From Terriglobales bacterium (GTDB lineage Bacteria > Acidobacteriota > Terriglobia > Terriglobales > Acidobacteriaceae), in assembly GCA_025936825.1 (NCBI GenBank), contig JAICSO010000011.1, positions 62,001-126,000 on the forward strand: a stretch of 64,000 bases of DNA, read 5' to 3'. The position numbers and the translations under genes were made by a program. Shown here piece by piece: positions 13,317 to 58,938 of the stretch (positions within the stretch are counted from its first letter, which is position 1; every line of letters starts with the position of its first letter). Below the pieces are notes generated by a model. The model did not search any database. It saw only the letters and a program-made list of their open reading frames with translations, and had not been told where the DNA came from.

Positions 13317-14431
13317 CTGGTCCAAACCGGCTTTCTGCCGCTCACGAATTTTGCGAACGCAACCAACGCCGCTACATTCAAGAGCACAAATGTGAACGCC
13401 GCATCAGCGCCGCGCGCGAGCAGACCACGTCCAGCTTGTACAATCGCCAACAAACCGAGCGCGTAAAAGGCTAGCTGAAGGAGTAGTAGGGTTCTGAAGA
13501 ATGCTCCACTCAGCAGCGCCGACGTCACCAGTGTCGTCGCAAGCGCAAACGGCATGATCAACCGGCAGAGCTTGTGGCTCACAAACTCGAATCGGATCGG
13601 ATTCTGTCGCGTCAGAAGCCAGGGCGCAAGTTGCAGAAGTTGATAGTTGCCGGTAAGCGTCCGCACCTTGCGAGCAAACTCCCGGCCCGTACCCTGACTG
13701 GCCAGATCCCACGCATGAGCGCGTTCATCGAACACCACTCGGAAGCCCTGGCGAACCACGTTCATCGGAATAAAGACGTCATCCAGAATCGTATCGACCG
13801 GGACTGATACAAGCAGCTTTCGGCGCACCGCATAGAACGCGCCCGTCGCGCCCACGACCGAGCCGGATGCGGATTCTGCCTGGCGAATCTGCTTCTCCAT
13901 GCGCCAGTAGAGGCCGACGCCGCGCGCAGATTCGCCGGCATGCGGATCACCCAGCAACAATTCACCGCTGGCGCACCCGACAGAAGGGTCCGCGAAATTC
14001 TCCATGAGCAACTGCAACGCTCCGGACTCAATCTCCTGACGAGCGTCGGTAAACACCACCACGTCATTCGTTGCTATGTTCAGCGCTTCATTTAGCCCCG
14101 CGGCCTTACCTCGTGCTTCGGTCAGAAGTACCGACCGGATTCGGCTCGAAGCATGCTCCCGAAGCGCACGCTCTGTACCGTCCGATGATCCGTCAGAAAC
14201 GATCACGATCTCACATTTATCAGCGGGGTAGTTCAGAGATAGCAGGTTTCGCAGTTTGCGGTCGAGGATTGCCATCTCATTGCGAACAACCATCACGATC
14301 GAAATCGACGGTAAAAATTCCGCGCGACGAACGGGAGCCGATTTCCATCTCCCGCGTACCCACAGCCACGCCGGATACCCGAAGTAGGTGTAGGCAATGA
14401 CCGCAACCGAAGACCAAAAAAACCATCTCAT
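13313..14431 (-). CDS. Membrane glycosyltransferase family 2
   Basis: This 372-residue protein has one N-terminal membrane helix (FFWSSVAVIAYTYFGYPAWL) and two or three near the C-terminus, enclosing a GT-A domain. Motifs include SIVMVVRNE, IVIVSDGSSDGTE, VVFTDARQEIE (metal site region), GATGAFYAVRR and DDVFIPMNVVRQGFRV, where the acidic pair supplies the catalytic base. It resembles processive or single-transfer GT2 enzymes such as EpsF/ExoO-like proteins, with a non-canonical end motif (RKVRTLTGNYQLL). The stop overlaps the ATG of the polymerase gene, and its own ATG overlaps the stop of the priming transferase, so synthesis is coupled. Confidence 0.88.
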   Translation of the reverse strand: MRWFFWSSVAVIAYTYFGYPAWLWVRGRWKSAPVRRAEFLPSISIVMVVRNEMAILDRKLRNLLSLNYPADKCEIVIVSDGSSDGTERALREHASSRIRSVLLTEARGKAAGLNEALNIATNDVVVFTDARQEIESGALQLLMENFADPSVGCASGELLLGDPHAGESARGVGLYWRMEKQIRQAESASGSVVGATGAFYAVRRKLLVSVPVDTILDDVFIPMNVVRQGFRVVFDERAHAWDLASQGTGREFARKVRTLTGNYQLLQLAPWLLTRQNPIRFEFVSHKLCRLIMPFALATTLVTSALLSGAFFRTLLLLQLAFYALGLLAIVQAGRGLLARGADAAFTFVLLNVAALVAFAKFVSGRKPVWTR

Positions 14432-15801
14432 TGCGCGCCTCGCCCAAGCAGCACAATCTTGACGGTCTGGAACATGATCATGAGATCAAGTCCGAGCGAA
14501 GCATTCTTGATGTAGTAGAGATCGTATTGCAGCTTCTCTTTCGAGTCCTCGACGGTGTTCCCGTACTTGTACTTAACCTGCGCCCAACCCGTGATGCCCG
14601 GTCGAACCGCGCTGCGAACAGGGTAATACTGAATCACCTTGGAGAGCATTTCCACGAATTCCGGCCGCTCGGGGCGTGGTCCGACAAAGGCCATATCGCC
14701 TTTCACGACGCACCACAATTGCGGGATTTCATCGAGGCGCGACTTGCGCAGAAACTTGCCAACTCGCGTGATCCGCGGATCGTCATCACCTGCCCAGGTA
14801 GGGCCGGTATCGGATTCCGCATCCTGTCGCATGGTGCGGAATTTGTAGCAATAAAAAACTTTGCCTCCCAGCCCGACGCGTTTCTGCCGATATAAGACCG
14901 AGCCCGATGAATCCAGCTTAATCGCGAGAATCACGAATGGGATGATTGGCAGAACCACAAGCAACAGCACCGCGGATGCAAGAATCGCAATCAAACGCCG
15001 CACGACGAGAAACGTTGCGCTGAAGCGAAACCCTTCGGCGAAAATGAGCCAGCTGGGGTAAAGGTTATCAACTTCAATTCTTCCGGAAATCTTCTCCAGC
15101 CATGAGGTAGCCTCCTCGATTTTCACGCCGTTCAGACGGAGGTGCAGCATCTCCATGACTGGCAGCGTGCCGCGACGGTCTTCCATGGCGACGATCACGC
15201 GATGGACCCGATGCCCTCGAATCAATTCCATCAAGTGAGCGGCGATCGCTTCGCGCGTCGGAGCGCCTTCCACGTTGCCACTCCATCCGGCAACTTCAAC
15301 CCCGAGTTCCGTACGAGTGCGAAGTCCGTTCACCAATCGTTGCGCACGCTCACCAGTGCCCAACACGTATACCCGCTCGCGAAGGTAGGGTCCCTGTGCC
15401 AGCCAGGCGTACGCCAGACGCCACGTGAACAGCGTAGCGGTAACCAAAAGCAGCGCCAGAACAACGGTGTTATTGCCAATCAGGAGATTCGGGAAGATGT
15501 AGGCCAGAGCCGCGGTCAGCAGCGCCAGGATTCCAGGCACCATCAGCAAACGGAAATACAGTTCGCCCCGCTCGTTCCATTGCACTGGCTCATACAGATC
15601 GAACAAATGCGAGAAGATGAGTACCGCAACGGTCGCCACTACGATCTTCAGATACCCGCCCTCGTAGTTCAGCAACACGTAGGCGCTCTCTGGGTGCTGC
15701 CAAATGGTCGCAACCAGAAACGAAATCCAAACCAGCAACGCCTCGCCGCCCAAAAGCACAAGCGTGCGGATCGGATAGTAAACATTGAACAGTCGGATCA
15801 A
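14428..15801 (-). CDS. Undecaprenyl-phosphate sugar phosphotransferase (priming enzyme)
   Basis: The 457-residue protein has about five membrane helices in the N-terminal half with a CoA-binding-like domain (YVLGTGERAQRLVNGLR) between them, then the bacterial sugar transferase domain from about 270. That domain shows DSSGSVLYRQKRVGLGG, YKFRTMRQDAE, RITRVGKFLRKSRLDEIPQL, GDMAFVGPRPERPEF and VRPGITGWAQVKYKYG. It should start each EPS repeat unit by placing a sugar phosphate on undecaprenyl phosphate at the inner membrane. It belongs to the EpsB/WcaJ-like group found with exosortase loci. The first sugar is not predictable. Confidence 0.92.
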   Translation of the reverse strand: MIRLFNVYYPIRTLVLLGGEALLVWISFLVATIWQHPESAYVLLNYEGGYLKIVVATVAVLIFSHLFDLYEPVQWNERGELYFRLLMVPGILALLTAALAYIFPNLLIGNNTVVLALLLVTATLFTWRLAYAWLAQGPYLRERVYVLGTGERAQRLVNGLRTRTELGVEVAGWSGNVEGAPTREAIAAHLMELIRGHRVHRVIVAMEDRRGTLPVMEMLHLRLNGVKIEEATSWLEKISGRIEVDNLYPSWLIFAEGFRFSATFLVVRRLIAILASAVLLLVVLPIIPFVILAIKLDSSGSVLYRQKRVGLGGKVFYCYKFRTMRQDAESDTGPTWAGDDDPRITRVGKFLRKSRLDEIPQLWCVVKGDMAFVGPRPERPEFVEMLSKVIQYYPVRSAVRPGITGWAQVKYKYGNTVEDSKEKLQYDLYYIKNASLGLDLMIMFQTVKIVLLGRGAQ

Positions 15802-15809
15802 GGATTCCC

Positions 15810-16712
15810 CTAGTTCTTGCTTTCAGCCTGCCCATCGCGACCGTAAGCCGCGTAGTAGTACTGCATGTAGGGGGCGAGTTCCGGAGTAATACCATTCAGC
15901 ACGACGCCGATTACGTTGCGCTCCGCGAATTCACGGCGAGCGCGGCGAGCGGCGTCGGTAGGCGTACTGTTGGAACGCACCACGAGTAAGACCCCATCGC
16001 AGTCGTTGGCCATCAATACAGCATCGGTCACAGGAACTGCGGGCGCCGAGTCGACAATGATCCAGTCGAATGTCGCTTCCAAGCGGTTCAGCAGGTTCCG
16101 CAAGCGACCATTAGCCAGCAGTTCCGCCGGATTGGCGCTGTAATTCCCCGCCGGGATGAAGAAGAGGTTTTCCAACGGTCCGCGCTGAAGAATCGAGAAT
16201 TCGTCCGCCTCGGAGCGAAGATATTCAAACAGGCCAGGCCCGGCATCGGTGCCAAGCAATTTGTGCAATTGCGGATTGCGCAGGTCGCCATCGATCAGGA
16301 GAACGCGGCGGCCGTGCTGGCGAGCGAGCACCTGCGCAAGGTTTGCCGATGTAAAGGACTTCCCTTCCTTGGGCAGAGCACTCGTAATCAAAATTTTCGA
16401 GAGCGGCTGTTTCTCGCGCGCCTGGTATAAACGGCTGCGAAGGGTCCGGAACTCTTCCATGCCGGAGGCATGCTCCTCGGAGTTGAAGAAGAGCATGCAG
16501 TTGGTATCAGGAGCCCAGCGAATCTGGCGAGCTTGTGACAGAACAGAGTCCGCGTTGAACGACATCCCCGGTGCCGTGCTGAGGGCAGGCATAGCGGCCG
16601 TGGCCGCCTCGGCCACCTCTACAGCAGCGGGCGTGGTCTCGACTCTCGATCCGGGCTGAGACATCGCCTTCTCCTGTTCGGCCTTCTTCAATGCTTCGTG
16701 GATGCGGCTCAT
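15810..16712 (-). CDS. Bacterial tyrosine kinase, CpsD/exosortase-associated
   Basis: This 300-residue BY-kinase starts MSRIHEALKKAEQEK, the usual N-terminal helix of the exosortase-associated type. Walker A is LPKEGKSFTSANLA near 113, Walker A' LLIDGDLRNPQLHKLLG near 137, and Walker B WIIVDSAPAVPVTDAV near 215. The C-terminal tyrosine cluster YMQYYYAAYG is the likely autophosphorylation site. It has no membrane segment and should work with the separate Wzz-like protein at 17663 to control chain length and export. Its ATGA overlaps the stop of the ATPase gene. Confidence 0.92.
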   Translation of the reverse strand: MSRIHEALKKAEQEKAMSQPGSRVETTPAAVEVAEAATAAMPALSTAPGMSFNADSVLSQARQIRWAPDTNCMLFFNSEEHASGMEEFRTLRSRLYQAREKQPLSKILITSALPKEGKSFTSANLAQVLARQHGRRVLLIDGDLRNPQLHKLLGTDAGPGLFEYLRSEADEFSILQRGPLENLFFIPAGNYSANPAELLANGRLRNLLNRLEATFDWIIVDSAPAVPVTDAVLMANDCDGVLLVVRSNSTPTDAARRARREFAERNVIGVVLNGITPELAPYMQYYYAAYGRDGQAESKN

Positions 16713-17656
16713 AGTTTTCCTTCCTTGGGTAACTCGCGCTCGGGCTCTTTCAGTCGCTCTGCAAGATTAGAAAGCGTCTTCAATGCCTCGGTCAGGTCGA
16801 ACTTATCGGGACTCGGCACGGGAGCCGGGGGCAAGCTTGCGTGGTTGTCGCCCAAATCAAAATCCCTCGCCACAGCGTCGACGATTGTCGGGCCAACCAC
16901 CTTCTGCTGATCAACAAATGCGCTGACCAGGCAGTGTTCGCAAATAAGGTTCACGACTCGCGGAATCCCGCTCGAATAGCGATGGATTGCCGTCAAAGCA
17001 TCGGCGTCGAAAATCTGCTGCCCATTCGAACCGGCGATCCGCAAACGTTGCTGGATATAGGCCCTCGTCTCATCGGCGCTGAGCGGATGAGTCTTCGCTC
17101 GCAACGTCAGCCGTTGGCGCAACTGCCGCAAGTGTGGCTGCTTGAGTTTCTGCTCCAATTCCGTCTGGCCAACGAGTACGATTTGCAGCAACTTCTCGGT
17201 GAAGGTTTCCAGATTCGTTAACATTCGAATCTCTTCGAGCACTTCATCGGCGAGGTTCTGAGCTTCGTCAACGATCAGGACGGCAGTCTCACCGGCGCGA
17301 TAGCGTTCCAGGAGCCAGTTATAAAGCCGCATCAGTATCTGACTCTTAGAGCGGGTTTCGCACGGAATGCCGAAGTCAGCCATCATGTAGTCGAGGAACT
17401 GCGGCACGTTCATCCTCGAGTTGAATACGAAAGCTGTCGGGACCTGCTGAGCCCGCAGCCACTCGAGTAGTTTGTTGATCAGCGTCGTTTTTCCCGTGCC
17501 GACTTCGCCGGTAAGCAACACAAAACCTTTGCGGCTCTGGATGCCGTAGGTCAGGCAGGCGAGCGCTTCCTCCGTGTGCCGCGTCAGGAACAGATAACGC
17601 GGGTCCGGATTGACATTGAACGGGTTTGCCCGAAGGCCAAAGAATTCTTTGTACAT
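16709..17656 (-). CDS. Exosortase-associated AAA ATPase (ExeA/GspA-like)
   Basis: The 315-residue protein begins MYKEFFGLRANPFNVNPDPRYLFLT, the classical start of the ATPase family that accompanies exosortase EPS loci and of ExeA/GspA. Walker A is LLTGEVGTGKTTLINKLL near 48 and Walker B AVLIVDEAQNLADEVLEEIRML near 125. A Leu-Arg-rich sensor region and an Arg finger zone follow, then about 50 proline-rich C-terminal residues. Its cellular job is not firmly known; it probably drives assembly or gating of the EPS export apparatus. It overlaps the downstream tyrosine kinase gene and sits 6 bases after the chain-length gene. Confidence 0.9.
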   Translation of the reverse strand: MYKEFFGLRANPFNVNPDPRYLFLTRHTEEALACLTYGIQSRKGFVLLTGEVGTGKTTLINKLLEWLRAQQVPTAFVFNSRMNVPQFLDYMMADFGIPCETRSKSQILMRLYNWLLERYRAGETAVLIVDEAQNLADEVLEEIRMLTNLETFTEKLLQIVLVGQTELEQKLKQPHLRQLRQRLTLRAKTHPLSADETRAYIQQRLRIAGSNGQQIFDADALTAIHRYSSGIPRVVNLICEHCLVSAFVDQQKVVGPTIVDAVARDFDLGDNHASLPPAPVPSPDKFDLTEALKTLSNLAERLKEPERELPKEGKL

Positions 17657-17662
17657 TCGCGG

Positions 17663-19168
17663 TTAGACCCCTACCGTTTCTTTCTTGCGAGACTTGCTGG
17701 TGCCATTGCCATTGCTCGCTTCCATCCCGACCCACGGAACTTGAGTGAGCACGGGCAGATCGAGCAGTGCCAATACATCAGCTTCGTTCCGGATTGACTG
17801 GTCGCGGAATTCGAGCCACGTCGCCAGTACTAAACCGAGAACAAGTCCAGCGCCGAATCCACCACCCGCAAAAAGCACACGATTGGGAAAACTGGGGGAA
17901 TCGGGCAATCCAGCGGGCTGAAGCACGTGCATCTGCTCGCCCTGTTGCTCGCGCTCCATATCGATCTGCGTATCGGCCCTGTTTTTGTTCATGAGCAGAT
18001 CGTTGTAGTTCTTCTGAGCTGTGTCGTAGTCGCGCGTCAACTCTTTGTATTGCTGGTCAATCGCGGGACTAAGAGCTACACGGCCCTCATACACTTTGAT
18101 CTCGCCCTGGATCTTCTGCTGCGCACGAGTGGCCTGCGTAATCGTGTCCTGCTGTTGATGGATCTGAAAACGAAGCTGCTGAATCTCCGGCGGCTCCGCA
18201 AGATTGTTTGTATTGGAACTCACGGTCGCCGGACTCGCGGCAGCCGCGTTGGCTTCATCAATCTTTTTCTGCAGCGCCTTGACATCGTTCTTCGCCTTTA
18301 CGACCTCCGGATAATCGTCGGTGTAACGGGTCTTGAGCTGCAGTAGTTGACTCTGCAAATCGGCCATCTGCTTCTGCAACGTCTTGGGATCGGTACTATC
18401 GGGTGTCGATTTCCACGCGGCCAACTGTTGCGCCAGCATTGATTCGGCGTATGCCTTGTCCTGCTGTGCCCGGTTTAGCTGTTGCGTATTTGACTCAAGT
18501 TGTGAATTCAGCGCCATCAGGTACTGCATGTTCTTGTCGGAATCCGTCGGCAGCTGCCCTGGATAACGCGCCTTGAACATGGCCATTTTGCTGTCGAGTT
18601 CGTCGAGCTTGTTTTTCGCATCCTGGACCTGCCGTCCAAGGAATTCCGCCGTTTCCTGAGCGATGTGTTCGCGATCCGCAAAATTCTCACGGATCATGAT
18701 GTTGGTGATCTCGCTGCAGATCGCCTGCACCGTCTTAGGACTGTTGCCGGTGAAGTTGACGTTAAAGCCCGGCACGTCGCCTTTGTTCTGCCAGGCAGGT
18801 TGCACAACAACGGCTTGAACCGCCTGGATACTTACGCCCTTGCGAATCTGCTCCAGCGACATCCCGAGCGGGCCTTCCGAAAGCTTCAGCTTCTCGACCA
18901 TGGGACGGAGCTCTTCTGTGCTCAACGCCCGCTGCTCAAGTCGCGTGATCCGCTGGCTGAGATCTTCAGTCACCACCGGTTTCACATACCCCTCTGGGAC
19001 CTTTTGTTCTTCGACCAGCACGACGGCCGTCGAGGTGTACCTGGGCGTAAAGGCGTATGAAACGGCAAAGCCGATCGCAGGCGCCAACACAGTGGGCAAC
19101 AAGATCACCCACAGGCGACGCCGTAACATCGCCAGATAATCGTCCAGAGTCAATTCGCGATTCATCAT
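17663..19168 (-). CDS. Wzz/GumC-type chain-length determinant, exosortase-associated
   Basis: The start is placed at ATG 19168 (MMNRELTLDDYLAMLRRRLWVILLP); an upstream ATG at 19192 adds nine residues and is less likely. There is a membrane helix near residues 20-40, a long periplasmic coiled-coil stretch (about 90-400, rich in Q, E and K), and a second membrane helix (VLFAGGGFGAGLVLGLVLATWL) near 445. No kinase domain is fused, so the separate kinase at 15810 is probably its partner. The protein should set polysaccharide chain length and link the inner-membrane machinery to the outer-membrane exporter. It matches the exosortase chain-length family in length and layout. Confidence 0.9.
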   Translation of the reverse strand: MMNRELTLDDYLAMLRRRLWVILLPTVLAPAIGFAVSYAFTPRYTSTAVVLVEEQKVPEGYVKPVVTEDLSQRITRLEQRALSTEELRPMVEKLKLSEGPLGMSLEQIRKGVSIQAVQAVVVQPAWQNKGDVPGFNVNFTGNSPKTVQAICSEITNIMIRENFADREHIAQETAEFLGRQVQDAKNKLDELDSKMAMFKARYPGQLPTDSDKNMQYLMALNSQLESNTQQLNRAQQDKAYAESMLAQQLAAWKSTPDSTDPKTLQKQMADLQSQLLQLKTRYTDDYPEVVKAKNDVKALQKKIDEANAAAASPATVSSNTNNLAEPPEIQQLRFQIHQQQDTITQATRAQQKIQGEIKVYEGRVALSPAIDQQYKELTRDYDTAQKNYNDLLMNKNRADTQIDMEREQQGEQMHVLQPAGLPDSPSFPNRVLFAGGGFGAGLVLGLVLATWLEFRDQSIRNEADVLALLDLPVLTQVPWVGMEASNGNGTSKSRKKETVGV

Positions 19169-19207
19169 CGTTAATTTCCGTTCTGCCAGCATTGGGCTGG
19201 CGCAAAC

Positions 19208-20722
19208 CTAATCGAGGCGGATCGGTCTCGGGTGCCAATTAATTCCGATCTGCCCGGTATGACGCAGCGCACTCAAACCGCAGACACTCCCAGCTCCGGT
19301 GCACTGTCCAACGCCCATATCGTTGAACTGGTAGCTCACAAAGACGCTGAATTGCTGGCCCAACTGTCGCTGCAACGAGCTTCCCGCATACCAGAACTGA
19401 TAGCTGCGGGTTTGAATCCCGGCTCCTGAAGTCGTTGTTGACGTCTGCAGGTTGGAGTTATGCGAGTAGCCGACGTCAGTGTTCGTAGTCCAATGCCGAC
19501 CTAACCGATGGCCCAGGGTAAACCGCGCCGCATTGGTATTTGCGCCGGCAAAGAACCCTGAACCCGGCGTGACGAAGCGCTGATACATAACCGTCGCACT
19601 GGTCCGGGAAGAGACGGTGTAATTAAAAGTTAATGAACCATTGGCCGAGACCAAGTTTGAACTGGTCGCGGATGGGTTGCTGGCAGTCACCTGATTTTGC
19701 ACTTTAACTAATTGTGGGCCGCCCGCTATGGCAAGGTTCAGCTTTCCGGTGATTCTGCGCCCATAAAGAGCATTCCATACATGCGCGGTGATACTGCCGC
19801 TTCCTGCCCGCGGGAAGTGAAATTCTTGAAAGGCATACTGCACGCCCACTTGGTCCTTGCGTGTGAGCAAGTGGTTGAACCCAATTTGTCCTGTAGTCTG
19901 CTGGCTGTTGATGATCTTGAATGGCGCGGTCGAGTTGTTCACATTCAGATAATTCGTGAGGTCGTAGCCACCCGCGAGAGTGACCGTGCTGCGCGGGGAC
20001 AGTCCCTGCGTGATATCGACGATCGTGTCATTGCCAATTCGCGGTTGGAACCCAAGCGAACCAAACTGGCCGCCGCCGAAAAGGCCTGCTGGACTACCGC
20101 CTGAAATACCTCCGCCCAGACCTGTGCCGGCACCGCTTCCCGAGATGCCGCCGAGCGCCGAACCGACGCTTCCGGCGCCTCCATAGGAACTGAACCCAAA
20201 TGTGCCCTCGGGAAGATAGTCAAAACTGTCCCGAATGACCAACTGCCCGGTACGCCAAAGAATCCGCTGATCCGCGGCCAGCGTGTGGTTTTGCGTAGCC
20301 CGACCCTGGCCTGAAAGTATGGTTGGGCCAGCGTAAAAGTCCCCGCCCGCGATGTAATCCAAGCCGAACTGGTATCTCCTCCATATCTTCTGCATGTCGA
20401 CAGAAGCTAGAGCGCGGGAAATTTCGGCCATATGATTCTTGCTGCCGCTCGCGCCGGCTGCATTCGAATCCACGGATTCGCTTAACTGCAAACCCGGAAC
20501 CAGGTAACTCCTGCCACCGAACGCTGGTTCGGCAACCGGTTGATCCAGCCCAGAGAGAGGCGGGTTTTCAGCGTTGTTCTGTTCCGCGGGCGCAGTTGCC
20601 GCAGGAACCGCTCCGGCGTCATTGGATCCGGAACCATCCTGCGCGGCCGCAATCGAGACGCAAACAGAGGCGCTCAACAGCAGGAGGAGTACACGCCGAA
20701 CTGTAATCGTGATTTGGTTCAT
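19208..20722 (-). CDS. Outer-membrane beta-barrel protein of the EPS locus
   Basis: The start is taken as ATG 20722 (MNQITITVRR), seven bases after the exporter stop and preceded by AGGA; an upstream start at 20743 would overlap that gene. A signal peptide (VLLLLLSASVCVSIAAAQ) is followed by a low-complexity stretch and then alternating amphipathic strands ending YQFNDMG... and IGINWHPRPIRLD. Residues about 170-225 are extremely glycine-rich (GGISGSGAGTGLGGGISGG and similar). It looks like a TIGR03016-like exosortase-locus outer-membrane protein, perhaps the EPS outer-membrane channel or scaffold. Function is inferred from context and strand pattern only. Confidence 0.75.
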   Translation of the reverse strand: MNQITITVRRVLLLLLSASVCVSIAAAQDGSGSNDAGAVPAATAPAEQNNAENPPLSGLDQPVAEPAFGGRSYLVPGLQLSESVDSNAAGASGSKNHMAEISRALASVDMQKIWRRYQFGLDYIAGGDFYAGPTILSGQGRATQNHTLAADQRILWRTGQLVIRDSFDYLPEGTFGFSSYGGAGSVGSALGGISGSGAGTGLGGGISGGSPAGLFGGGQFGSLGFQPRIGNDTIVDITQGLSPRSTVTLAGGYDLTNYLNVNNSTAPFKIINSQQTTGQIGFNHLLTRKDQVGVQYAFQEFHFPRAGSGSITAHVWNALYGRRITGKLNLAIAGGPQLVKVQNQVTASNPSATSSNLVSANGSLTFNYTVSSRTSATVMYQRFVTPGSGFFAGANTNAARFTLGHRLGRHWTTNTDVGYSHNSNLQTSTTTSGAGIQTRSYQFWYAGSSLQRQLGQQFSVFVSYQFNDMGVGQCTGAGSVCGLSALRHTGQIGINWHPRPIRLD

Positions 20723-20729
20723 ATCAATC

Positions 20730-21335
20730 CTACGGGACAACAATCGTGTCTCCGGGTCTAAGCGTTATGTTCTGCTCCATGGCCTCTCCCTTGATCAGCT
20801 TCTTGTAGGGCACGGGAATCTTCTTCTGGGCGCCATTCTCGTTGCGCAGTACGTAAATCCCCTTGGTATTCGCGAATTGAGTGAAGCCGCATGTTGCCAA
20901 GGCTTGAAGCACAGTCATATTGGGCAACAGGTTAAGGGATCCTTGGTGCAGCACCTCCCCCATCGCATAAATACGCTGGCTGTTCATCTGCGTCACAGTG
21001 ACCGTGACGTGCGGATCAGAGAGGTACTTCTTGAGTTTCTCGGTGATATCAGCCGCCAACTGCATGGGAGTAAGACCAGCCGCCTTGACGTCGTTCAGCA
21101 GAGGCATGGAAATCATGCCGTCCGCACGTACCGGCAACGTAGTGGTCAGATCGGGCTCTTTCCACACGTGGATAGACAACATATCGTCGCCGCCGATGAC
21201 GTAGGTGGCATTATTGGCTTGCGGAAGCGGCATGGCTTCCGCGGCCTTCGAGGCTGGAGGATTGTTCTGCGCTAAAGCTGGCGGCAAACCTCCTATTAAC
21301 AGAACCATGAGATAAAGAGGAACAGTACGCTTCAT
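20730..21335 (-). CDS. Polysaccharide export lipoprotein-like protein (Wza/SLBB family)
   Basis: This 201-residue protein has a signal peptide (MKRTVPLYLMVLLIGGLPPALAQ) without an obvious lipobox cysteine. The polysaccharide export domain is clear: YVIGGDDMLSIHVWKEPDLTT, the VRADGMISMPLLNDVKAAG segment and LKKYLSDPHVTVTV. An SLBB-like domain follows (IYAMGEVLHQGSL, LQALATCGF), ending LRPGDTIVVP. It is shorter than enteric Wza and fits the exosortase-associated export family. It should form part of the periplasmic/outer-membrane conduit. It is 12 bases after the regulator gene and 7 bases before the barrel gene. Confidence 0.9.
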   Translation of the reverse strand: MKRTVPLYLMVLLIGGLPPALAQNNPPASKAAEAMPLPQANNATYVIGGDDMLSIHVWKEPDLTTTLPVRADGMISMPLLNDVKAAGLTPMQLAADITEKLKKYLSDPHVTVTVTQMNSQRIYAMGEVLHQGSLNLLPNMTVLQALATCGFTQFANTKGIYVLRNENGAQKKIPVPYKKLIKGEAMEQNITLRPGDTIVVP

Positions 21336-21347
21336 GTCTTCTCCTGG

Positions 21348-22412
21348 CTACGAAGCTCCAAACTCGCTGTAGCCAATCTGCTTCAGCTTATAGAGCAGAG
21401 CCTTGTAACTGATTTGTAATTCCTGAGCCGCGCGCCGGCGATTCCAGCGCGTCCGGGTTAGTACTTTCAAAATCAATTCCCGTTCGGCTTCACGAGAAGC
21501 CGCACGAGATGCCTCTTTCAACGACGTCTTTTCGCCATTGGAACGAGAATCGCCGCGCGTCAGCAACGAACGCAGCCCTCCCATAGCGACCGACTCATTA
21601 CCCACAGCGACGATGGCGCGAACTGCGGCTTCTAACTCGGGAAGGTTCCCGGGCCACGAGTGCTCCAGGAACAGCTTGTGAGTGGAGGAACTCAGCGTCG
21701 GCAGCGGCCTATGATATGCCTCGGAATATCGCTGCAAGAAAAACGTGATCAGGTGCGCGATATCTTCTCGGCGTTGGCGCAACGGCGGAACACGCAAGCA
21801 CACGCCGCTGATCCGGTAGTAGAGATCTTCGCGGAAGTCGCCGGAACGAACGTCTGCATCCAGGTCCCGTGAGTTCGCGCAAATGATTCGAAGTTCGCGA
21901 TGGCCATTGCCATTGCTTCCCTGCTTAGCCAAAATCTCAAGAAGCTTTTTCTGGCAATCATCGGGCAACTCGCTGATTTCAGACAGGTAGAGGGTGGCTG
22001 CGGGCGGCAGAAGCTTGGGATCGAGCCCGTCAGGGGTCGATTCGGCGCAACTCCGGACCTGGAACTGATCGAGCGTGCCTCCAGAGTTCAAATGAATAGC
22101 GTGGGCAATGCTCTGTTTACCCGTGCCATGCTCTCCGATCAGTAGCACCGGAACATGGCTCTGAGACAAGTCACGGATAAGAGCCACGACCGCTCGCATG
22201 CTGGGACTGATGGCATCCAGCAATGGAAGGTCGACGAATTCATCCTCCCCGAGAGTTGCCAGGGGTGACACCTGTTGGTAGTTGTGTTCCATGATCTGGT
22301 CGCGAAAAGGTTGGGGGGAACACACTTCGCGAGGCGGTGAAAATATCTTTTGCACGGCGTGTGCCACATGGGCGTCCGGGGTCACGAACAGTCCAGAAAC
22401 ACAGGTCGCCAA
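21348..22412 (-). CDS. NtrC-like AAA+ regulator lacking GAFTGA and Walker B aspartate
   Basis: The 354-residue protein, probably from TTG 22412 (ATG 22292 is an alternative), has no receiver domain. Walker A (GEHGTGK) is at about 93-99, sensor and Arg-finger parts are kept (IICANSRDL, FREDLYYRISG, VPPLRQRREDI), and so is HSWPGNLPELEAAV. But the stretch between Walker A and Walker B is about 20 residues short and contains no ESELFG...GAFTGA loop, and Walker B reads LYLSEISEL with Ser for Asp. The C-terminal Fis-type helix-turn-helix (WNRRRAAQELQISYKALLYKLKQIG) is intact and nearly the same as those of the proteins at 26865 and 30151. It should bind DNA but not remodel sigma-54, so it may repress or compete. 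It is the first gene of the EPS operon. Confidence 0.85.
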   Translation of the reverse strand: MATCVSGLFVTPDAHVAHAVQKIFSPPREVCSPQPFRDQIMEHNYQQVSPLATLGEDEFVDLPLLDAISPSMRAVVALIRDLSQSHVPVLLIGEHGTGKQSIAHAIHLNSGGTLDQFQVRSCAESTPDGLDPKLLPPAATLYLSEISELPDDCQKKLLEILAKQGSNGNGHRELRIICANSRDLDADVRSGDFREDLYYRISGVCLRVPPLRQRREDIAHLITFFLQRYSEAYHRPLPTLSSSTHKLFLEHSWPGNLPELEAAVRAIVAVGNESVAMGGLRSLLTRGDSRSNGEKTSLKEASRAASREAERELILKVLTRTRWNRRRAAQELQISYKALLYKLKQIGYSEFGAS

Positions 22413-22807
22413 ACCTTTTCAAAGACTTGCAGACACAAAAGAACAAGCCCCTGCTCCAGCTAGAGTACTTGAGGTGTGCAGAAAAGAGAAAAGTTTTTCC
22501 CACCCCGGGGTGACCTGCGCGAGGTAACTTTTGTCCTACCGGGTTCACCGAGCTGCATAAAACGTTGAAAAACAAAGGAAATACTTGGAAAAGGAAGTTA
22601 GCCAAAGTACTTCCAGGGGTGGAAATGAATTATCCCTTCGAAGGAGAAGGTGCGTTACAGTGGTCGTCGATGAGTACCCGGCCAAGTGACGAGAATCAAG
22701 CACTTGCAAGGTAAAGTCGCTTCCGTTTTCGGTTTGCGAGGCCGCTCTGCACGGCTCCAAAATTGCAACGTCTGTACAAGGCAAACCGGGACAATTTGCG
22801 CCCATTG
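22413..22807. other. Divergent control region between EPS operon regulator and exosortase
   Basis: About 395 bases with no supported gene. It holds a perfect 12-base palindrome CACCCCGGGGTG (22501-22512) and an inverted repeat GGAAGT (22593-22598) / ACTTCC (22609-22614), which coincides with a candidate sigma-54 promoter facing the regulator. No sigma-54 element of correct spacing was found facing the exosortase gene. Confidence 0.5.
22600..22615 (-). promoter_or_regulatory. Weak candidate sigma-54 promoter for the leftward EPS operon
   Basis: On the minus strand TGGAAGTACTTTGGCT has GG and GC separated by exactly 10 bases. The -24 half keeps only TGG of TGGCACG and the -12 half is TGGCT, so the match is modest. 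Transcription would start near 22589, about 177 bases before the TTG at 22412. Confidence 0.35.
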
Positions 22808-23698
22808 ATGGCTGAACTAGCACAAACAGTCGAATTCCCACGCCCGAGGATTTCCTGGCCGACAAAATGGCCCTTTTGGCAGCTTGTGGTGCTGATGGCC
22901 TTGGTCTTCTGGATCTATGCCCCGGTTTTAGGCCGACTTGTCCGTCAATGGTGGACAGATCCCAATTTTTCCCATGGCTTTTTCGTACCTGCATTTTCGC
23001 TTTACGTTCTGTGGCAAAACCGCGAGAAGCTTCGGTCAGTGCCACCTAGTCCGTCCTCGTGGGGCCTTGGACTAGTGCTCCTTTCTCTATGCACTTTGAT
23101 CCTCGGGGTATTCGGGGCGGAGCTTTTCCTTTCTCGGATTTCCCTGGTCTTTTTGCTTGCCGGCATGATCATTTTCTTGTCCGGCTGGCAGATGCTCAGG
23201 GCGGTGCTGTTCCCGCTGGCTTTCTTGGTCCTGATGGTTCCAATTCCGTCGATAGTTCTGAACGAGATCACGTTTCCCCTACAGATCCTGGCGTCAAAAT
23301 TGTCAGCATCGTTATTGCCCCTGCTCGGAGTACCCGTTCTTCGCGAAGGGAATGTGATCAATCTGCCCGCGATGCCGCTGGAAGTCGCGGATGCCTGTAG
23401 CGGCATACACTCGCTGCTTTCCCTTACCTGTTTGGCGGTGATGTACGGATACCTGCTGGAGAAGCGAGTGGGTATCAGAGTCATTCTTGCAATCGCCTCC
23501 ATTCCGATTGCAGTCGCGGCGAACGCATTTCGAATCGTGGGGACTGGATTACTGGTGCAATATTGGGACCCGGACAAAGCCGAAGGATTTTTCCACCAGT
23601 TCACCGGATGGCTCATCTTTGTCGTTTCCTTGCTGATGCTGTTTGGCCTGCATTTTCTGATCACGTTTAATGCGCGACGAAGGGAGCAGCGGGCATGA
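22808..23698 (+). CDS. Exosortase (EpsH/Xrt family membrane transpeptidase)
   Basis: The start is taken as ATG 22808; a TTG at 22763 would add 15 residues, and neither has a strong ribosome site. The protein has about eight membrane helices. The three catalytic residues of exosortases are present: Cys in EVADACSGIHSLLSL, Arg in VAANAFRIVGTGLL and His in GFFHQFTGWLIF. Exosortases are thought to cleave PEP-CTERM-type sorting signals and pass the protein on to the cell surface, in step with EPS production. No PEP-CTERM protein is seen in this window, so its substrates must lie elsewhere. It overlaps the EpsI gene by 4 bases. Confidence 0.93.
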   Translation: MAELAQTVEFPRPRISWPTKWPFWQLVVLMALVFWIYAPVLGRLVRQWWTDPNFSHGFFVPAFSLYVLWQNREKLRSVPPSPSSWGLGLVLLSLCTLILGVFGAELFLSRISLVFLLAGMIIFLSGWQMLRAVLFPLAFLVLMVPIPSIVLNEITFPLQILASKLSASLLPLLGVPVLREGNVINLPAMPLEVADACSGIHSLLSLTCLAVMYGYLLEKRVGIRVILAIASIPIAVAANAFRIVGTGLLVQYWDPDKAEGFFHQFTGWLIFVVSLLMLFGLHFLITFNARRREQRA

Positions 23699-24345
23699 AA
23701 CGACATTGGCGTTTCACTGTCGCCGCCGTTCTCCTGGCAGCTACTGCCCTTGTCCTGCAAGCACGAAACGGCAAGGAGATTATTCCGCAGCGTCCGCCAC
23801 TATCGTCTTTCCCGCGAGTTCTTGATGGATGGAACGGAAGCGATGTCCCAATCACACCGGACGTCCTTGAGGTGCTGGGGCCTGGGGACTTTCTGCTGCG
23901 GAACTATCGGGACCAGGGCAACACACAAAAACCAGACGTCTATCTGTTCATTGCCTATTTTCCAAGTCAGCGTGCCGGAGACACGATCCACTCTCCAAAG
24001 AATTGCCTGCCGGGAGCGGGGTGGGCGCCGGTCCGATCCGACCGGGTCACCGTTGACGTAGCCCATCACGCGCCCTTTCTGGCGAACCGCTACCTGATCG
24101 CCAAGGGCGATGATCGGCAGTTGGTCTTGTATTGGTATTGGGCGCATGATCGGGCCGTTGCTAGCGAATACGCTGCGAAGTTCTACCTGGTTGCCGACTC
24201 CATCCGCATGCATCGCACGGATGGTTCGCTGGTTCGTCTCAGCATGCCCCTGGCTCCGGGAGCAAGCAGTGAGAGCGCGGAACGAGACCTGATCGCTTGG
24301 GCGGGGAGAGTTGTTCCCTTGTTGGACACTTATGTCCCGAGATAA
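23695..24345 (+). CDS. epsI: EpsI family exosortase partner protein
   Basis: The 216-residue protein has an N-terminal membrane anchor (WRFTVAAVLLAATALVL) and an external domain. It carries the family pattern FPRVLDGWNGSDVPIT, YLFIAYFPSQRAGDTIHSPKNCLPGAGW and VLYWYWAHDRAVASEYAAKFYLVADSI. The motif around the HSPKNCLPGAGW cysteine is the signature of EpsI proteins, which are encoded next to, or fused with, exosortases. It probably assists sorting or EPS export in the periplasm; the molecular role is unknown. It overlaps the exosortase stop (ATGA). Confidence 0.92.
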   Translation: MKRHWRFTVAAVLLAATALVLQARNGKEIIPQRPPLSSFPRVLDGWNGSDVPITPDVLEVLGPGDFLLRNYRDQGNTQKPDVYLFIAYFPSQRAGDTIHSPKNCLPGAGWAPVRSDRVTVDVAHHAPFLANRYLIAKGDDRQLVLYWYWAHDRAVASEYAAKFYLVADSIRMHRTDGSLVRLSMPLAPGASSESAERDLIAWAGRVVPLLDTYVPR

Positions 24346-24476
24346 GTCGATTGGCAAGTGGGTGAGATCTCAAGCCGTGACGCTAGTAACTTTTGAGTAA
24401 TGGTCCATTGCAGTACGGTAGTGAATTGATGAGATTTGCCAACGAGAGCGCCCGATGCGCTCATGGGAGAGTAGTA

Positions 24477-26783
24477 ATGAAGCGTTCTTCAAGTTTGCGT
24501 CTGCTCCTGGTACTAGGGCTCGTGGCCGCGTTTTTTGCCGGCTGTTCCCGCGATCCCAATGTCCGCAAACAGAAATATTTCGAGAGCGGTGAGCGCTATT
24601 TCAGTAAGGGGAGATATCGCGAAGCGATCATCCAGTACCGTAATGCGACGGAAGTGGATGGCGCTTTCGCCGCAGCCCATTACCAATTAGGGCAGTCATA
24701 CCTGAAACTGCAGGACTGGCAACATGCCTACGCCGAATTCAGCCGCACTGTCGAACTGCAGCCGGAGAACTATAAGGCGCGATTAGACATGGCAAACCTG
24801 CTGGTTCTGGACGGCCAACCTGACCACATCAAGGCGGCTCAGGACCAAGTCGATGTGCTGCTGGATAAACAGCCTAACGATCCCGATACGCATATCGCTT
24901 CTGCAAGTATCCTTGGCAGAGAACAGCGTTTCAACGAGGCGATTGCCGAACTTCAGAAAGCGATCGCCATGGCTCCAACCAGAGGCGACGCATATTATGA
25001 CTTGGCGATCATCCAAGCGCAGGCAAACCTCCCTGACGCCGCCGAGACTAATTTCAAAAAAGCTATCGACCTTAAACCAGACGGCTTGAATCCACACCTT
25101 GCGCTAGCCGGGTTCTACCAATCGCGTAGCCGGTTCTCAGACGCAGAACAGCAGATTCGTCAAGTAATCGAGAGCTCTCCCAAGGATGTGGACGCGCGCG
25201 CGGCCATGGCGAAGCTTTATATGTCAGAAGGCAAGCGCAGCGAGGCGGAAGCCTTCTTGAAACAAGTGAAACAGGATTTCCCTGACAACTCAGTCGGCTA
25301 CCGCATGCTCGGAGATTTCTACTTCGCGATCGGCGATCTCGACAAAGCTGCTGCCGAGTACGAATCGCTGTACCGCGACCATGCGAAAGATGTGCAGGTG
25401 CAGAAGAATTACATTCAGCTGTTGATTCTTAAAAACCGCACCGACGAGGCGAATAAGCTCAACGAAGAATTCCTTAAATCCCACGCAAAAGATGAAGAAG
25501 GACTGACCTATCGCGGCGAAATCCAGATGGCGCAAGGCAAAGTCGCAGACGCCGTCCGCACTCTGCAGGCCGTGGTTACCGAAGATCCTGATATGGCCGT
25601 CGCCCATTATCAGCTCGGCATGGCGCTGAACCGAAGCGGAGATCTCGACCATGCTGCAAGCGAATGGCGCGAGGCAGTTCGACTTCGTTCCGATTTGCTT
25701 GACGCGTACCGGATGCTGGCCCTTTATTCCATGCAAAAGGCTGATCTCTCAGCGTTGCAAGGTTACGCCAGCACGATTATTAAACTTGCTTCCGGCGCTC
25801 CTGAGGGCTATGCCATGCGCGCGGTGGCGCTCATGGGGCAGAAGCAATATGTTGGAGCGGAACAAGACGCCCGCCAAGCTGTGCAGTTGGCTCCTCAATC
25901 GCCAGCCGGCTACGTGCAAATGGGAAATCTGAACGCCTTACAACAGAAATTTCCCCAAGCCGAAACCTGGTATAAGCAGGCGCTAACCCGCGATAAGAAT
26001 TCAAACGACGCCCTCCGTGGACTCGTGAATGTCTATCTGGTGCAGAAACAGCCGGACAAGGCTCTGGCTGCCGTAAACCAGCAGATTGGACAAGCGCCGG
26101 AAAATAGCTCCTTTTATAACTTGCTCGGTGTGGTCCAAACCAACAAGAAGGACTATGTGTCTGCGATTGCCGCATACAAGAAGGCCGTGGGACTGGACAA
26201 GAACAACGCAGACGCTTACATCAAGATGGGTAGCTTGCAGGCCAAAACCGGTGCCATCGACGATTCTTTGGCGACCTGCAACGAGGCTATTCAGAGTAAC
26301 CCGAACGAATACGGCTTCTATATGTTGCTTGGCGGGGTTTACGAGAAAAAGAACGATCTCCAGAAAGCCCGCTCTGCTTACGAAAAGGCCTTGCAGCTTA
26401 AGCAAGACGACCCCCTGGCCTCAAATAACCTCGCGTATATTCTGCTCGAGACCAACAGCAATCCCGATCTAGCGTTGCAACTGGCACAGACGGCCCGCCG
26501 AGGCCTTCCAGAATTGTCGAACGTTGCGGACACCCTGGGTTGGGCTTTTTACCAAAAGGGCATCTATGGTTCGGCGATCAGCATGTTCAAGGAGGCTATT
26601 CAGCTAGCCGTCAAGCACAAAGAACCGGAGAACGCCACCTACCACTATCACCTTGGACTTGCTTATGCGAAATCGGAGCAACCTATGCTTGCCAAGCAGC
26701 ACTTGGAACGCGTGCTAAAGCTGGATCCGAAGTACAGTGACGCCGATGACGTCAGAAAGCAATTAGCGCAATTGAAATCGTAA
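24477..26783 (+). CDS. Large TPR-repeat lipoprotein of the exosortase/EPS system
   Basis: The start is ATG 24477, preceded by GGGAGAG; the frame is open from 24393. Of 768 residues, the first are a lipoprotein signal, LLLVLGLVAAFFAGC, with the lipobox cysteine near residue 22. The rest is an almost continuous array of tetratricopeptide repeats (about twenty), for example YFSKGRYREAIIQYRNATEVD and ARSAYEKALQLKQDDPLASNNLAYILLE. It fits the PrsT-like exosortase-associated TPR lipoprotein family, thought to scaffold the secretion machinery at the periplasmic side of a membrane. A 131-base gap separates it from epsI, so it may have its own promoter. It ends at a perfect terminator hairpin. Confidence 0.9.
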   Translation: MKRSSSLRLLLVLGLVAAFFAGCSRDPNVRKQKYFESGERYFSKGRYREAIIQYRNATEVDGAFAAAHYQLGQSYLKLQDWQHAYAEFSRTVELQPENYKARLDMANLLVLDGQPDHIKAAQDQVDVLLDKQPNDPDTHIASASILGREQRFNEAIAELQKAIAMAPTRGDAYYDLAIIQAQANLPDAAETNFKKAIDLKPDGLNPHLALAGFYQSRSRFSDAEQQIRQVIESSPKDVDARAAMAKLYMSEGKRSEAEAFLKQVKQDFPDNSVGYRMLGDFYFAIGDLDKAAAEYESLYRDHAKDVQVQKNYIQLLILKNRTDEANKLNEEFLKSHAKDEEGLTYRGEIQMAQGKVADAVRTLQAVVTEDPDMAVAHYQLGMALNRSGDLDHAASEWREAVRLRSDLLDAYRMLALYSMQKADLSALQGYASTIIKLASGAPEGYAMRAVALMGQKQYVGAEQDARQAVQLAPQSPAGYVQMGNLNALQQKFPQAETWYKQALTRDKNSNDALRGLVNVYLVQKQPDKALAAVNQQIGQAPENSSFYNLLGVVQTNKKDYVSAIAAYKKAVGLDKNNADAYIKMGSLQAKTGAIDDSLATCNEAIQSNPNEYGFYMLLGGVYEKKNDLQKARSAYEKALQLKQDDPLASNNLAYILLETNSNPDLALQLAQTARRGLPELSNVADTLGWAFYQKGIYGSAISMFKEAIQLAVKHKEPENATYHYHLGLAYAKSEQPMLAKQHLERVLKLDPKYSDADDVRKQLAQLKS

Positions 26784-26864: not shown

Positions 26865-28286
26865 TTACGATGCGCCAGCCGACAAGCGATGCGTTTTCGA
26901 CTGCGCAATTCCGTATTGGCGAATCTTGTAGAGGAGCGCCTTGTAACTGATCTGCAGCAGCGCGGCAGCTTGCTTGCGGTTCCAGTTGGTCTCGTCCAGG
27001 GCTTTGGCAATTGCTTCCGCTTCGGCTTCGTCCTTAGCGCTGCGAGCCAGCCCTTTTAAGCCACCAGGATTTTCTGGAGCCCCGCCGTTGGCGCGTTGCG
27101 GTGTTGGATCGAACTGCGCACCCGAACCGTCACTGCGCGGTTGAAGCTCGTGGATTGCAAGTTTCTCGTCGCCAAGCACCAGATATCGTTTCACGAAATT
27201 GCCCAATTCGCGCAGATTGCCGGGCCATGGATAATTCAGGCAAGCCTGCAGAAGCTCCGGCGTGAACGGCAGAGGCGAGCGGGCATACTGCTCGGAGAGT
27301 TGCGTCATGAAGTGCTTCAGCAGAATCGGAATTTCTTCTTTGCGCTCGCGCAGCGGCGGAATGTGGAGAGTGAACGCATTCAGGCGGTAGTACAAATCTT
27401 CGCGTAACCGTTTGTTGGCTAGCGCTTCCGGAATGTTGATGTTGGTCGCTGCGAGGATCCGCACGTCGACCTTGAGCACCGAGCGACTGCCTAATCGAGA
27501 AAACTGCTGATCCTGCAAAACGTGTAACAGCTTCGCTTGCAGCGACGGCGGCATCTCGCCAATCTCATCGAGAAGGATCGTGCCTTTATTGCAAAGCTCG
27601 AATTTCCCCGGCTTGGCGTGAGTCGCACCAGTAAAGGCACCGGCCTCGTAGCCGAACAGTTCGCTTTCAAGCAGATCAGCCGGCACCGCGGCGCAATTCA
27701 CTTTTAAGAATGTTCTGTGAGCGCGTGGAGAAAGCTTGTGAATAAGGCGCGCCATGACCTCTTTTCCGGTGCCACTCTCGCCGAGCATGAGCACAGGAAT
27801 GTCGACATTCGCAACCAACGCCGCTTGCGACCGCAGCTTGCGCATGTTGGCGGAAGCGGCAACGAAAAACGTCTCGTCGCCAAGCTCCTCGACTTCACCC
27901 GCGTAATTCTGCTGATTCGTCCCCAGGCATTGATCGATGACGTTGTCGAGTTCGGCCTTCTGAAACGGCTTCGTGATGTAGTCGGCAGCCCCCAGGCGAA
28001 TCGCCTGCACAACCTTCTTGGTATCGTTGACGCACGACAGCATGACGACCTTCACGCCCGGACGAATCTTGCGGAGATTCTCGAGCGTTTCCAACCCATC
28101 AATCCCGGGCATCAGCAGGTCCAGCAGCACGAGATCGGGGTTCATGCCTTTTTGCACGATCTCTAGAGCTTCTTCACCGGTAGAGGCGGTTGATACATGG
28201 TGCTCTTCCACTTCTAGAAGTGTTTTGATGTACCGCAACATCCCCGGTTCGTCGTCAACGAGTAAGATTTTGGCCTTGTCGCTCAT
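26865..28286 (-). CDS. Sigma-54-dependent response regulator (NtrC family)
   Basis: This 473-residue activator has a receiver domain at 5-120 (ILLVDDEPGMLRY, LVLLDLLMPGIDG with the phosphoacceptor Asp near 56, and ADYITKPFQ). The AAA+ domain has LGESGTGKEV, ESELFGYEAGAFTGATHAK (intact sigma-54 contact loop), GTILLDEIGEMP and REDLYYRLNAF. The Fis-type helix-turn-helix WNRKQAAALLQISYKALLYKIRQYG is at the C-terminus. It should activate sigma-54 promoters after phosphorylation by the kinase at 28283, whose stop overlaps its ATG. Its recognition helix matches those at 21348 and 30151, so shared targets in the EPS locus are likely. Confidence 0.95.
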   Translation of the reverse strand: MSDKAKILLVDDEPGMLRYIKTLLEVEEHHVSTASTGEEALEIVQKGMNPDLVLLDLLMPGIDGLETLENLRKIRPGVKVVMLSCVNDTKKVVQAIRLGAADYITKPFQKAELDNVIDQCLGTNQQNYAGEVEELGDETFFVAASANMRKLRSQAALVANVDIPVLMLGESGTGKEVMARLIHKLSPRAHRTFLKVNCAAVPADLLESELFGYEAGAFTGATHAKPGKFELCNKGTILLDEIGEMPPSLQAKLLHVLQDQQFSRLGSRSVLKVDVRILAATNINIPEALANKRLREDLYYRLNAFTLHIPPLRERKEEIPILLKHFMTQLSEQYARSPLPFTPELLQACLNYPWPGNLRELGNFVKRYLVLGDEKLAIHELQPRSDGSGAQFDPTPQRANGGAPENPGGLKGLARSAKDEAEAEAIAKALDETNWNRKQAAALLQISYKALLYKIRQYGIAQSKTHRLSAGAS

Positions 28287-29215
28287 TTCGCCTTTCCTTC
28301 CGCTCTCTTGTCGTTCGATTCACTCACAGGCGGCTTCAACGGAAGGATGAAGGAGAACTTGCATCCAGCACCAGGCTCGCTTTCAACCCAGATCTTGCCG
28401 CCCATGCCATTCACCAGCCTGCGCGCGATTGCGAGGCCAAGCCCCATTCCTTCCGTTTTCTCGCTGGAAGGCAAGCGAAAGAAATCGTCAAAGATTTCGA
28501 GGTGATACTCGGGCGGCACTCCAGGCCCAGTATCGGAAACACTGATCTTCACCGAATTTGGTGTTGAAAGTGGACGCCGCCGGCGTTCCTGAGTTGCGGG
28601 TGGAACAGCTGCCGTGCGGCGTTCCCACATGTACGGCTCCGCGTGCAACCACACCGTCCCGCCCGGGGGCGTGAACTTGTAAGAATTCTCCAGGAGATTC
28701 GAAACGATTCTCTCCATCTTGGGCGCGTCAAACGGGAACTCAATGACTTTTTCGTTCGCGAGAAAGTAGAGCGCCAAGCCCTTTTCCTGGAATCGCGGCG
28801 ACCACAGCCGGCAAACTTCCGATAAGCACGAGTTCACATTCGCAGTTTCAAACCTCATCCTCAGTTCGCCCGTTTCAAGCACACTGAAGCTAAGGAAATC
28901 CTGGATGTAGTGCTGCAAGCGATGCCCGTTGGAACGCATGTCGCGCAGAACCTCGCGCTGACGATCGTTCAATTCACCCAGTTTTTCGCTCTGCAGAAGT
29001 TCCACGTAACCGTTGAGGATTGCGAGCGGCGTCTTCAAATCGTGAGCCGCAGATGCCAATGCATTCGTGGTGCGAAGATAGCGCTCGCGGAGTTGCGAAT
29101 ATTCCTGCATCTCCTTCGATTCCTGAATGGCACTGGAAAAGCCAGATTCACTCGCCGCCGCCGCTGCGGATCCTTCTTTGGCTGGTATAGAAGACACGGA
29201 AATCTCTTTCGACAC
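28283..29215 (-). CDS. Soluble sensor histidine kinase
   Basis: The 310-residue kinase starts at GTG 29215 and has no membrane helix, so it is cytoplasmic. HisKA is near 50-115 with the phospho-His in ASAAHDLKTPLAILNGYVELL. The HATPase domain has the N box (RIVSNLLENSYKFTPPGG), the D/F boxes (VSDTGPGVPPEYHLEIFDDFFRLPSSEKTEGMG) and the G2 box (LGLAIARRLVNGMGG). An Arg/Pro-rich insert near 200-215 interrupts the ATP domain. It lacks a recognisable sensory domain; the first 45 residues are Ser/Ala-rich. It most probably phosphorylates the sigma-54 regulator at 26865. A good sigma-70 promoter lies upstream. Confidence 0.93.
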   Translation of the reverse strand: MSKEISVSSIPAKEGSAAAAASESGFSSAIQESKEMQEYSQLRERYLRTTNALASAAHDLKTPLAILNGYVELLQSEKLGELNDRQREVLRDMRSNGHRLQHYIQDFLSFSVLETGELRMRFETANVNSCLSEVCRLWSPRFQEKGLALYFLANEKVIEFPFDAPKMERIVSNLLENSYKFTPPGGTVWLHAEPYMWERRTAAVPPATQERRRRPLSTPNSVKISVSDTGPGVPPEYHLEIFDDFFRLPSSEKTEGMGLGLAIARRLVNGMGGKIWVESEPGAGCKFSFILPLKPPVSESNDKRAEGKAK

Positions 29216-29941: not shown

Positions 29942-30099
29942 AAGTTTTTTCCCACTCAAATTCTTGATTTTCAAGCGCTATCAGCGCCTCCGCGCCAGGG
30001 CCAACACCCATGCGCATTACGAGAGGCATAGATGCAAGCCATTGCAGTCACACACCTTTAACTAAATGGCTCCACAAATGAACCTTTGGGTGAGAGGTT

Positions 30100-58920: not shown

Positions 58921-58938
58921 TGCGCAACTCATAAATCC

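Follow-up and report, generated by a model that had tools for sequence, protein, structure and literature searches.

How can a protein of the NtrC kind serve the EPS operon that it heads when it has no GAFTGA, the motif needed for contact with sigma-54? The question arises in the 64,000-nucleotide stretch of DNA analysed here (the window), where a row of EPS genes begins with a gene for an AAA+/Fis-HTH regulator of this sort, hereafter the leader protein (Table 1). Pfam profiles recognized Sigma54_activat AAA+ homology in the leader protein (PF00158, 86.4 bits, cut-off 20.2; PF14532, 89.8 bits, cut-off 25), with PF00158 matching in two pieces at profile positions 5-64 and 95-165, the second being the better. 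AAA_lid_14 and HTH_8 also exceeded their cut-offs, and Response_reg gave no Pfam match in the protein. Scores against PrsR (TIGR02915, 148.5 bits) and TyrR (NF008085, 129.2 bits) fell below the curated cut-offs of 502.6 and 576, respectively. An AlphaFold2 model (mean pLDDT 79.5, pTM 0.60) has an ordinary bEBP AAA+ fold and matched the structures of PspF (Z 19.0), NtrX and NtrC1 best, with VpsR (7v2b; Z 17.7, rmsd 4.2, 216 residues) slightly behind.

Motif comparison confirmed the anatomy described in the first-pass annotation, which had reported a protein lacking GAFTGA, with Ser in Walker B and an intact DNA-binding helix. Walker A (GEHGTGKQ), the two arginine fingers (FREDLYYR) and the HTH (ELQISYKALLYKLKQIG) are preserved, and no GAFTGA-like motif is present in the leader protein. 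From Walker A Lys59 to Walker B position 104 there are 45 residues, versus 65 in 43 of 44 canonical relatives, and the earlier description of this interval as about 20 residues short is therefore correct. Overlooked until now were a shorter pre-sensor I stretch, the replacement of sensor I Asn by Ser and that of sensor II Arg (GNxREL) by Pro. With the contact loop missing and the ATPase site eroded, the leader protein is very unlikely to activate sigma-54, in line with the first-pass expectation that it should not activate.

Table 1 Features of the window discussed in the text (residue numbering from ATG 22292)
Feature	Position	Strand	Remark
Rest of EPS operon	14428..20743	-	components named in the text
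Polysaccharide export protein (Poly_export; TIGR03027-like)	20730..21335	-	155.8 bits, under its 180 cut-off
GAFTGA-less AAA+/Fis-HTH regulator (leader protein), proposed true frame	21348..22292	-	ATG 22292, 314 aa
Fis-type HTH, residues about 283-306	21375..21446	-	HTH_8 profile match
Walker B position 104	21981..21983	-	Ser replaces Asp; LYLSEI
Walker A Lys59	22116..22118	-	kept
5' extension of the first-pass ORF	22293..22412	-	probably untranslated promoter/leader; internal sigma-54 site; in-frame stops here in many orthologues
Sigma-54 -24/-12 site TGGCACACGCCGTGCA (GG-N10-GC)	22351..22366	-	one mismatch to the consensus used
Enhancer-like palindrome GGGAAAAACTTTTCTC (read on -)	22486..22501	.	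about 150 bp upstream of predicted start
Divergent exosortase, EpsI, PrsT-like TPR protein	22763..26783	+
PrsR-like response regulator bEBP	26865..28286	-	GAFTGA present
Histidine kinase adjoining PrsR-like	28283..29215	-
Palindrome upstream of orphan GTGAAAGTTTTTTCCC	29938..29953	+	two mismatches to strict pattern; chance 0.87 per window
Sigma-54 site of orphan TGGCGCCTGGGATGCA	30100..30115	+	two mismatches
Canonical GAFTGA+ paralogue without sensory domain ("orphan")	30151..31212	+	divergent from PrsR-like/kinase pair

The reading frame at 21348-22412 (-) is present and encodes 354 amino acids when counted from TTG 22412, the start adopted in the first pass. That codon is very probably not the start, as the -24/-12 site at 22366-22351, from which we predict transcription to begin at about 22340, lies within the frame; a sigma-54 promoter inside the frame makes ATG 22292 the likelier start. 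The open reading frame opens only 3' of the -24 element in 49 of 75 family loci (from the best 80 of 384 relatives), and all 75 have an in-frame start codon between the predicted transcription start and the domain.

We searched 61 genomes with the whole protein and, in addition to the query itself, recovered 12 proteins that are clear orthologues (49-65% identity) and one divergent member, L014 (45%); the loop is missing in all 14 proteins. A scan of named contigs, seeded on HTH-derived patterns, retained the best 80 of 384 relatives, nearly all of them on MAG contigs. One of these, L112, gave no Walker A pattern match and was dropped from the shuffle, start-codon, motif-table and dN/dS analyses. 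Two others (L040 and L111) lie on contigs titled Verrucomicrobia and Bacillota, which are probably misbinned MAGs. The first pass had proposed looking for the same deletion in relatives: among the window protein and the best 80 of 384, Walker A Lys is present in 81 of 81 and GAFTGA in 0 of 81. A sequencing error is very unlikely, since every orthologue compared has the same loss.

Walker B Asp occurs in 44 of 44 canonical proteins versus 18 of 80 family members (from the best 80 of 384), and sensor I Asn in 41 of 44 canonical proteins versus none of the 79 family residues listed (of 80). Walker B Glu is found in 76 of 80 members (Ser-Glu in the window protein), sensor II Arg in 61 of 80, and the arginine fingers in 76 and 71 of 80, compared with 44 and 44 of 44 in canonical proteins; the pre-sensor I stretch is 34-41 long in the family versus 42. 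In the AAA+ part, dN/dS is 0.06-0.31 over 12 close pairs, indicating purifying selection. Low dN/dS and conservation together argue that the protein is selected for something of which the sigma-54 contact loop is not part. A pseudogene is rejected because the loss is common to all compared orthologues and dN/dS is low. That the gene is a decaying relic without function is hardly credible to us: several catalytic residues are indeed gone, but the frame stays open, and in one fixed position, in dozens of genomes, the ratio just given is low and the HTH is conserved. What emerges is a family of disarmed bEBP paralogues, conserved in Acidobacteria. Its members retain the lid and the HTH along with Walker A and most of the arginine fingers; the loop for contact with sigma-54 and sensor I Asn have disappeared, and Walker B Asp is usually missing as well.

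An export gene comes next downstream of the leader in 76 of 80 loci (best 80 of 384 relatives), the other 4 having at most 110 nt of downstream sequence, and a divergent exosortase gene lies upstream in 68 of 80, within 1 kb in 64 of these. Of the 12 loci without exosortase, 7 have less than 1.3 kb of upstream sequence; none was found in L040, L054, L059, L060 and L113 despite 2.8-9.9 kb. The OMP, chain length, ExeA-like, kinase-like and EpsB genes then follow as far as the contig reaches, with few exceptions (e.g., L100). In the window, the row at 14428..20743 (-) holds an OMP-like protein without a family match, a chain-length determinant-like protein and the sugar transferase EpsB, along with two proteins that we take, by names not drawn from a family search, to be a putative ExeA-like ATPase and a putative tyrosine kinase-like protein. 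The first pass had considered a regulator of this kind unusual in such loci; the same gene in fact sits at the same place in dozens of acidobacterial EPS loci.

The DNA upstream of the leader is conserved as well. A sigma-54 site scoring at least 8 was found there in 77 of 80 loci (window included; from the best 80 of 384 relatives), L069 being omitted from the promoter count because its upstream DNA is too short. In L099 the site stands at an odd distance. Three loci (L056, L087 and L091) keep the gene and its neighbours with no recognisable sigma-54 site. Dinucleotide shuffles served as the control for 77 loci: sites scoring at least 9 occurred in 61 of 77 loci versus 3.3% of shuffles, and sites scoring at least 8 in 74 of 77 versus 15%. 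Palindromes of the type GRGAAAAnnTTTTCYC typically lie 120-160 bp before the sigma-54 site in family loci, and a match of at least 12 of 14 was found in 62 of 77 loci versus 1.7% of shuffles, an enrichment that is partly circular because the same loci supplied the palindrome consensus and were then scored with it; the sigma-54 consensus is independent. The palindrome is weak in several loci, such as L045, L099 and L110. We do not claim a sigma-54 promoter for the exosortase gene itself (22752-22767, +), as candidate sites on that strand are inconsistent among loci, and before prsK we found no sigma-54 site in the window and no consistent position across 17 loci (scores 0-9). The genome has an RpoN gene.

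This promoter bears on two other ways in which the leader protein might work. It might still activate sigma-54 through an unconventional surface, as the sigma-54 type of the promoter above its own gene could suggest, and the authors who describe a D. vulgaris EBP with GVATGV predict that it remains an activator (PMC4641369, in the excerpt available). The leader protein and its family, however, are missing the entire loop as well as sensor I Asn, and most members no longer have Walker B Asp; we consider such activation very improbable. Alternatively, the protein may be a sigma-70 regulator, as the first pass also proposed, and resemble TyrR, R. capsulatus NtrC or VpsR in binding ATP and DNA to activate or repress sigma-70 promoters in or beyond the EPS locus. 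GAFTGA-less bEBPs for which there are data do act at sigma-70 promoters (PMC3162934 and PMC10274813, in the parts available), and our structural model fits that of VpsR, which controls EPS. Yet what is conserved in cis at this operon is a sigma-54 site with a palindrome upstream of it, and VpsR is structurally no closer than PspF, NtrX or NtrC1; on balance we think a sigma-70 role unlikely.

The leader protein shares 36% identity with the window orphan and 34% with the PrsR-like regulator, whose own score against TIGR02915 (354.7 bits) is also under the 502.6 cut-off. The recognition helices of the three are nearly identical (ISY[KR][AG]LLYK, with the bias of an HTH-pattern search): LQISYKALLYK in 78 of 80 parsed family members, whose invariance is partly built in because these loci were found by HTH-derived patterns, ISYKALLYK in 18 of 18 parsed PrsR proteins and ISYR[AG]LLYK in 16 of 19 listed canonical leaders and orphans. 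An intact orphan-type GAFTGA+ paralogue accompanies a family member in 11 genomes (G000, G002, G003, G004, G005, G006, G013, G017, G021, G034 and G055). One further bEBP in the window, a response regulator at 58789-60288 (+) adjoining a large histidine-kinase-like gene, was also flagged by the no-GAFTGA pattern; it has GAYTGA and was not counted as a loss.

The leader operon and the intact window orphan have a palindrome-promoter layout in common, and 14 of 15 orphans have a palindrome scoring at least 11 upstream of a sigma-54 site scoring 7-9. Searching eight genomes for the combined module gave 31 matches versus 5 in a reversed control, and 11 of the 31 are leader or orphan promoters (11 being those examined). 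Position 2 of the palindrome is G in 48, A in 18 and T in 7 of 73 leaders versus T in 14 of 14 orphans, so the palindromes may not bind the same protein equally. A regulon defined from the palindrome alone was rejected, as the genome contains 4 copies of the strict palindrome, and the 3 others lack a good sigma-54 site beside them. These GAGAAAACCTTTTCTC-type palindromes away from a good sigma-54 site are at G000:C51:9354, C60:63897 and C74:4409, and those on C51 and C74 have similar proteins around them.

The reading that we tentatively favour, with belief and doubt close to balance, is that the leader protein would be a negative-feedback brake that sets EPS output and is made from the very sigma-54 EPS operon that it heads. 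The promoter would be fired by PrsR, by an intact orphan bEBP or by both; its activator is presumably PrsR-like or orphan, given recognition helices that nearly match that of the leader protein. The leader protein would then be made alongside the EPS genes and could occupy the same or overlapping enhancer palindromes, to which we infer that it binds from the similarity of the HTHs. On DNA it might form an ATP-stabilised oligomer or a mixed oligomer with its intact paralogues, and either enhancer occupancy or mixing would limit further activation. An antagonist had been proposed in the first pass; that proposal fits everything observed and coincides with our leading reading, which we likewise infer. 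A positive helper would join mixed rings with the orphan or PrsR, or organise DNA for them, and so assist activation without touching sigma-54. Retention of Walker A and most arginine fingers suits such a helper, as does the presence of an intact orphan-type paralogue in the genomes named above. But a location inside the target operon suits feedback better than initiation, and G012 yielded only a response regulator and G031 only fragments, and we judge a helper improbable. A helper and a sigma-70 regulator, the two main alternatives and in our view equally probable, would leave similar anatomy.

Among 32 regions with an export gene, 24 have a same-strand bEBP directly upstream, 13 of them canonical and 11 GAFTGA-less. 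The other 8 have no leader bEBP by the pattern used, which can miss some: the bEBP at G029:C32 is present and was not picked up. A tree of 79 rows that includes the loop columns implies 4 changes of GAFTGA state, 3 of them forced by well-supported branches, and a tree with outgroups and without the loop columns implies 4 changes, all 4 forced (bootstrap not settled). The trees thus point to loss of GAFTGA about four times among EPS-operon leaders, a recurrence that also sits poorly with the notion of an unusual role: once in the window family with L165 (=L014), once in L145 and L147, once in L152 with L157/L159/L161, and once in the PrsR-related group L176, L178 and L180. The window family, PrsR and the leader/orphan group each form one side of a branch, with split support of only 56/10 for the branching order of the family, canonical leaders/orphans and PrsR. 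All 35 GAFTGA-less tree rows are leaders, yet 24 of them were chosen as leaders; a fairer count, drawn from regions chosen around export genes and PrsR pairs, places 11 of 11 GAFTGA-less versus 13 of 44 canonical rows in the leader position.

The groups other than the window family differ in detail. In L145 (G025) and L147 (G028), GAFTGA is scrambled by substitutions (FGCERAAGINGHEPGR and FGYGEATSAGTIGAIPGR) with little or no shortening and the remaining tabulated ATPase residues are retained, and these two leaders may possibly represent an early stage of disarmament. The leaders of L152, L157, L159 and L161 (family f2) lie divergent to genes for a kinase and for a PrsR-like regulator with GAFTGA, and their Walker A to B distance is 43 in three of four, as short as in the window family. 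L176, L178 and L180 head a second EPS operon in G034, G004 and G012, and L178 keeps a putative receiver-like stretch and has Arg for the Walker A Lys. No sigma-54 site was found upstream of L178, L180 and L147, and only a weak one (score 7) upstream of L176 and L145, so that the promoter model leaves these loci out. We propose, with more doubt than belief, a generalization in which acidobacterial leaders of sigma-54 EPS operons would have been converted independently about four times into disarmed, operon-encoded DNA-binding proteins that put a dominant-negative brake on the sigma-54 promoter; the PrsR kind would account for at least one of these conversions and the leader/orphan kind for two. 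Enhancers of the bEBP type would thereby gain a built-in negative-feedback subunit, and the leader protein would be a natural example of how an activator can become a regulator of the circuit to which it belongs.

TyrR, DhaR, HupR and YplP resemble the leader protein as bEBP homologues with a broken GAFTGA, and have other domains and targets. VpsR of Vibrio cholerae is likewise a bEBP-derived EPS regulator without a proper GAFTGA and with the same AAA+ fold. VpsR has a receiver domain. The leader protein gave no match to such a domain and also lacks sensor I Asn, and the EPS row that it heads has a sigma-54 site. VpsR binds c-di-GMP, according to the title of its structure, and acts at sigma-70 promoters; an aspartyl phosphorylation site is mentioned for it in the part of PMC10274813 available. 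The excerpt of PMC3162934 assigns sigma-70 roles to TyrR, DhaR and HupR and lists VpsR and YplP as also lacking the motif. Deletion of the L1 loop links the leader protein to NtrC of R. capsulatus and Caulobacter, which, unlike the leader protein, are response regulators of nitrogen metabolism; these proteins and VpsR act at sigma-70 promoters, R. capsulatus NtrC requires binding but not hydrolysis of ATP, and Caulobacter NtrC reportedly depends on both Walker A and Walker B (PMC10274813, excerpt). The same excerpt describes no paralogue-and-operon arrangement of the leader kind for either NtrC.

Proteobacterial PEP-CTERM exosortase/EPS systems are like the leader locus in pairing an exosortase/EPS locus with an NtrC-like activator, here PrsK-PrsR, and sigma-54 sites (Haft 2006; PMC1569441, in the part available). 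PrsR, unlike the leader protein, combines a receiver domain with a domain for sigma-54 interaction, and its site, which ends in TTTACA, is separated from the sigma-54 motif by about 63 nt (same excerpt); the leader operon instead has a GAAAAnnTTTTC palindrome that lies about 120 nt upstream. In Aquincola, RpoN1 is required for pepA but seemingly not for transcription of EPS biosynthesis genes (PMC9850573, excerpt). Canonical leaders such as L148, L149 and L151 head the EPS row in other lineages with a similar palindrome-promoter layout; unlike the leader protein, canonical leader/orphan bEBPs keep GAFTGA and the ATPase motifs. Among the literature matches listed, we found no publication on an acidobacterial EPS regulator of the leader kind, and within that scope the present work is a first sketch of how exosortase EPS loci are regulated in Acidobacteria. 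It also indicates that the Pfam name Sigma54_activat would mislead annotation of the leader protein. Previously known GAFTGA-less bEBPs are scattered cases, and those for which there are data act at sigma-70 promoters. The family described here is large and conserved, its genes lie under a sigma-54 site and have intact paralogues nearby, and loss of GAFTGA has recurred independently at this one gene position.
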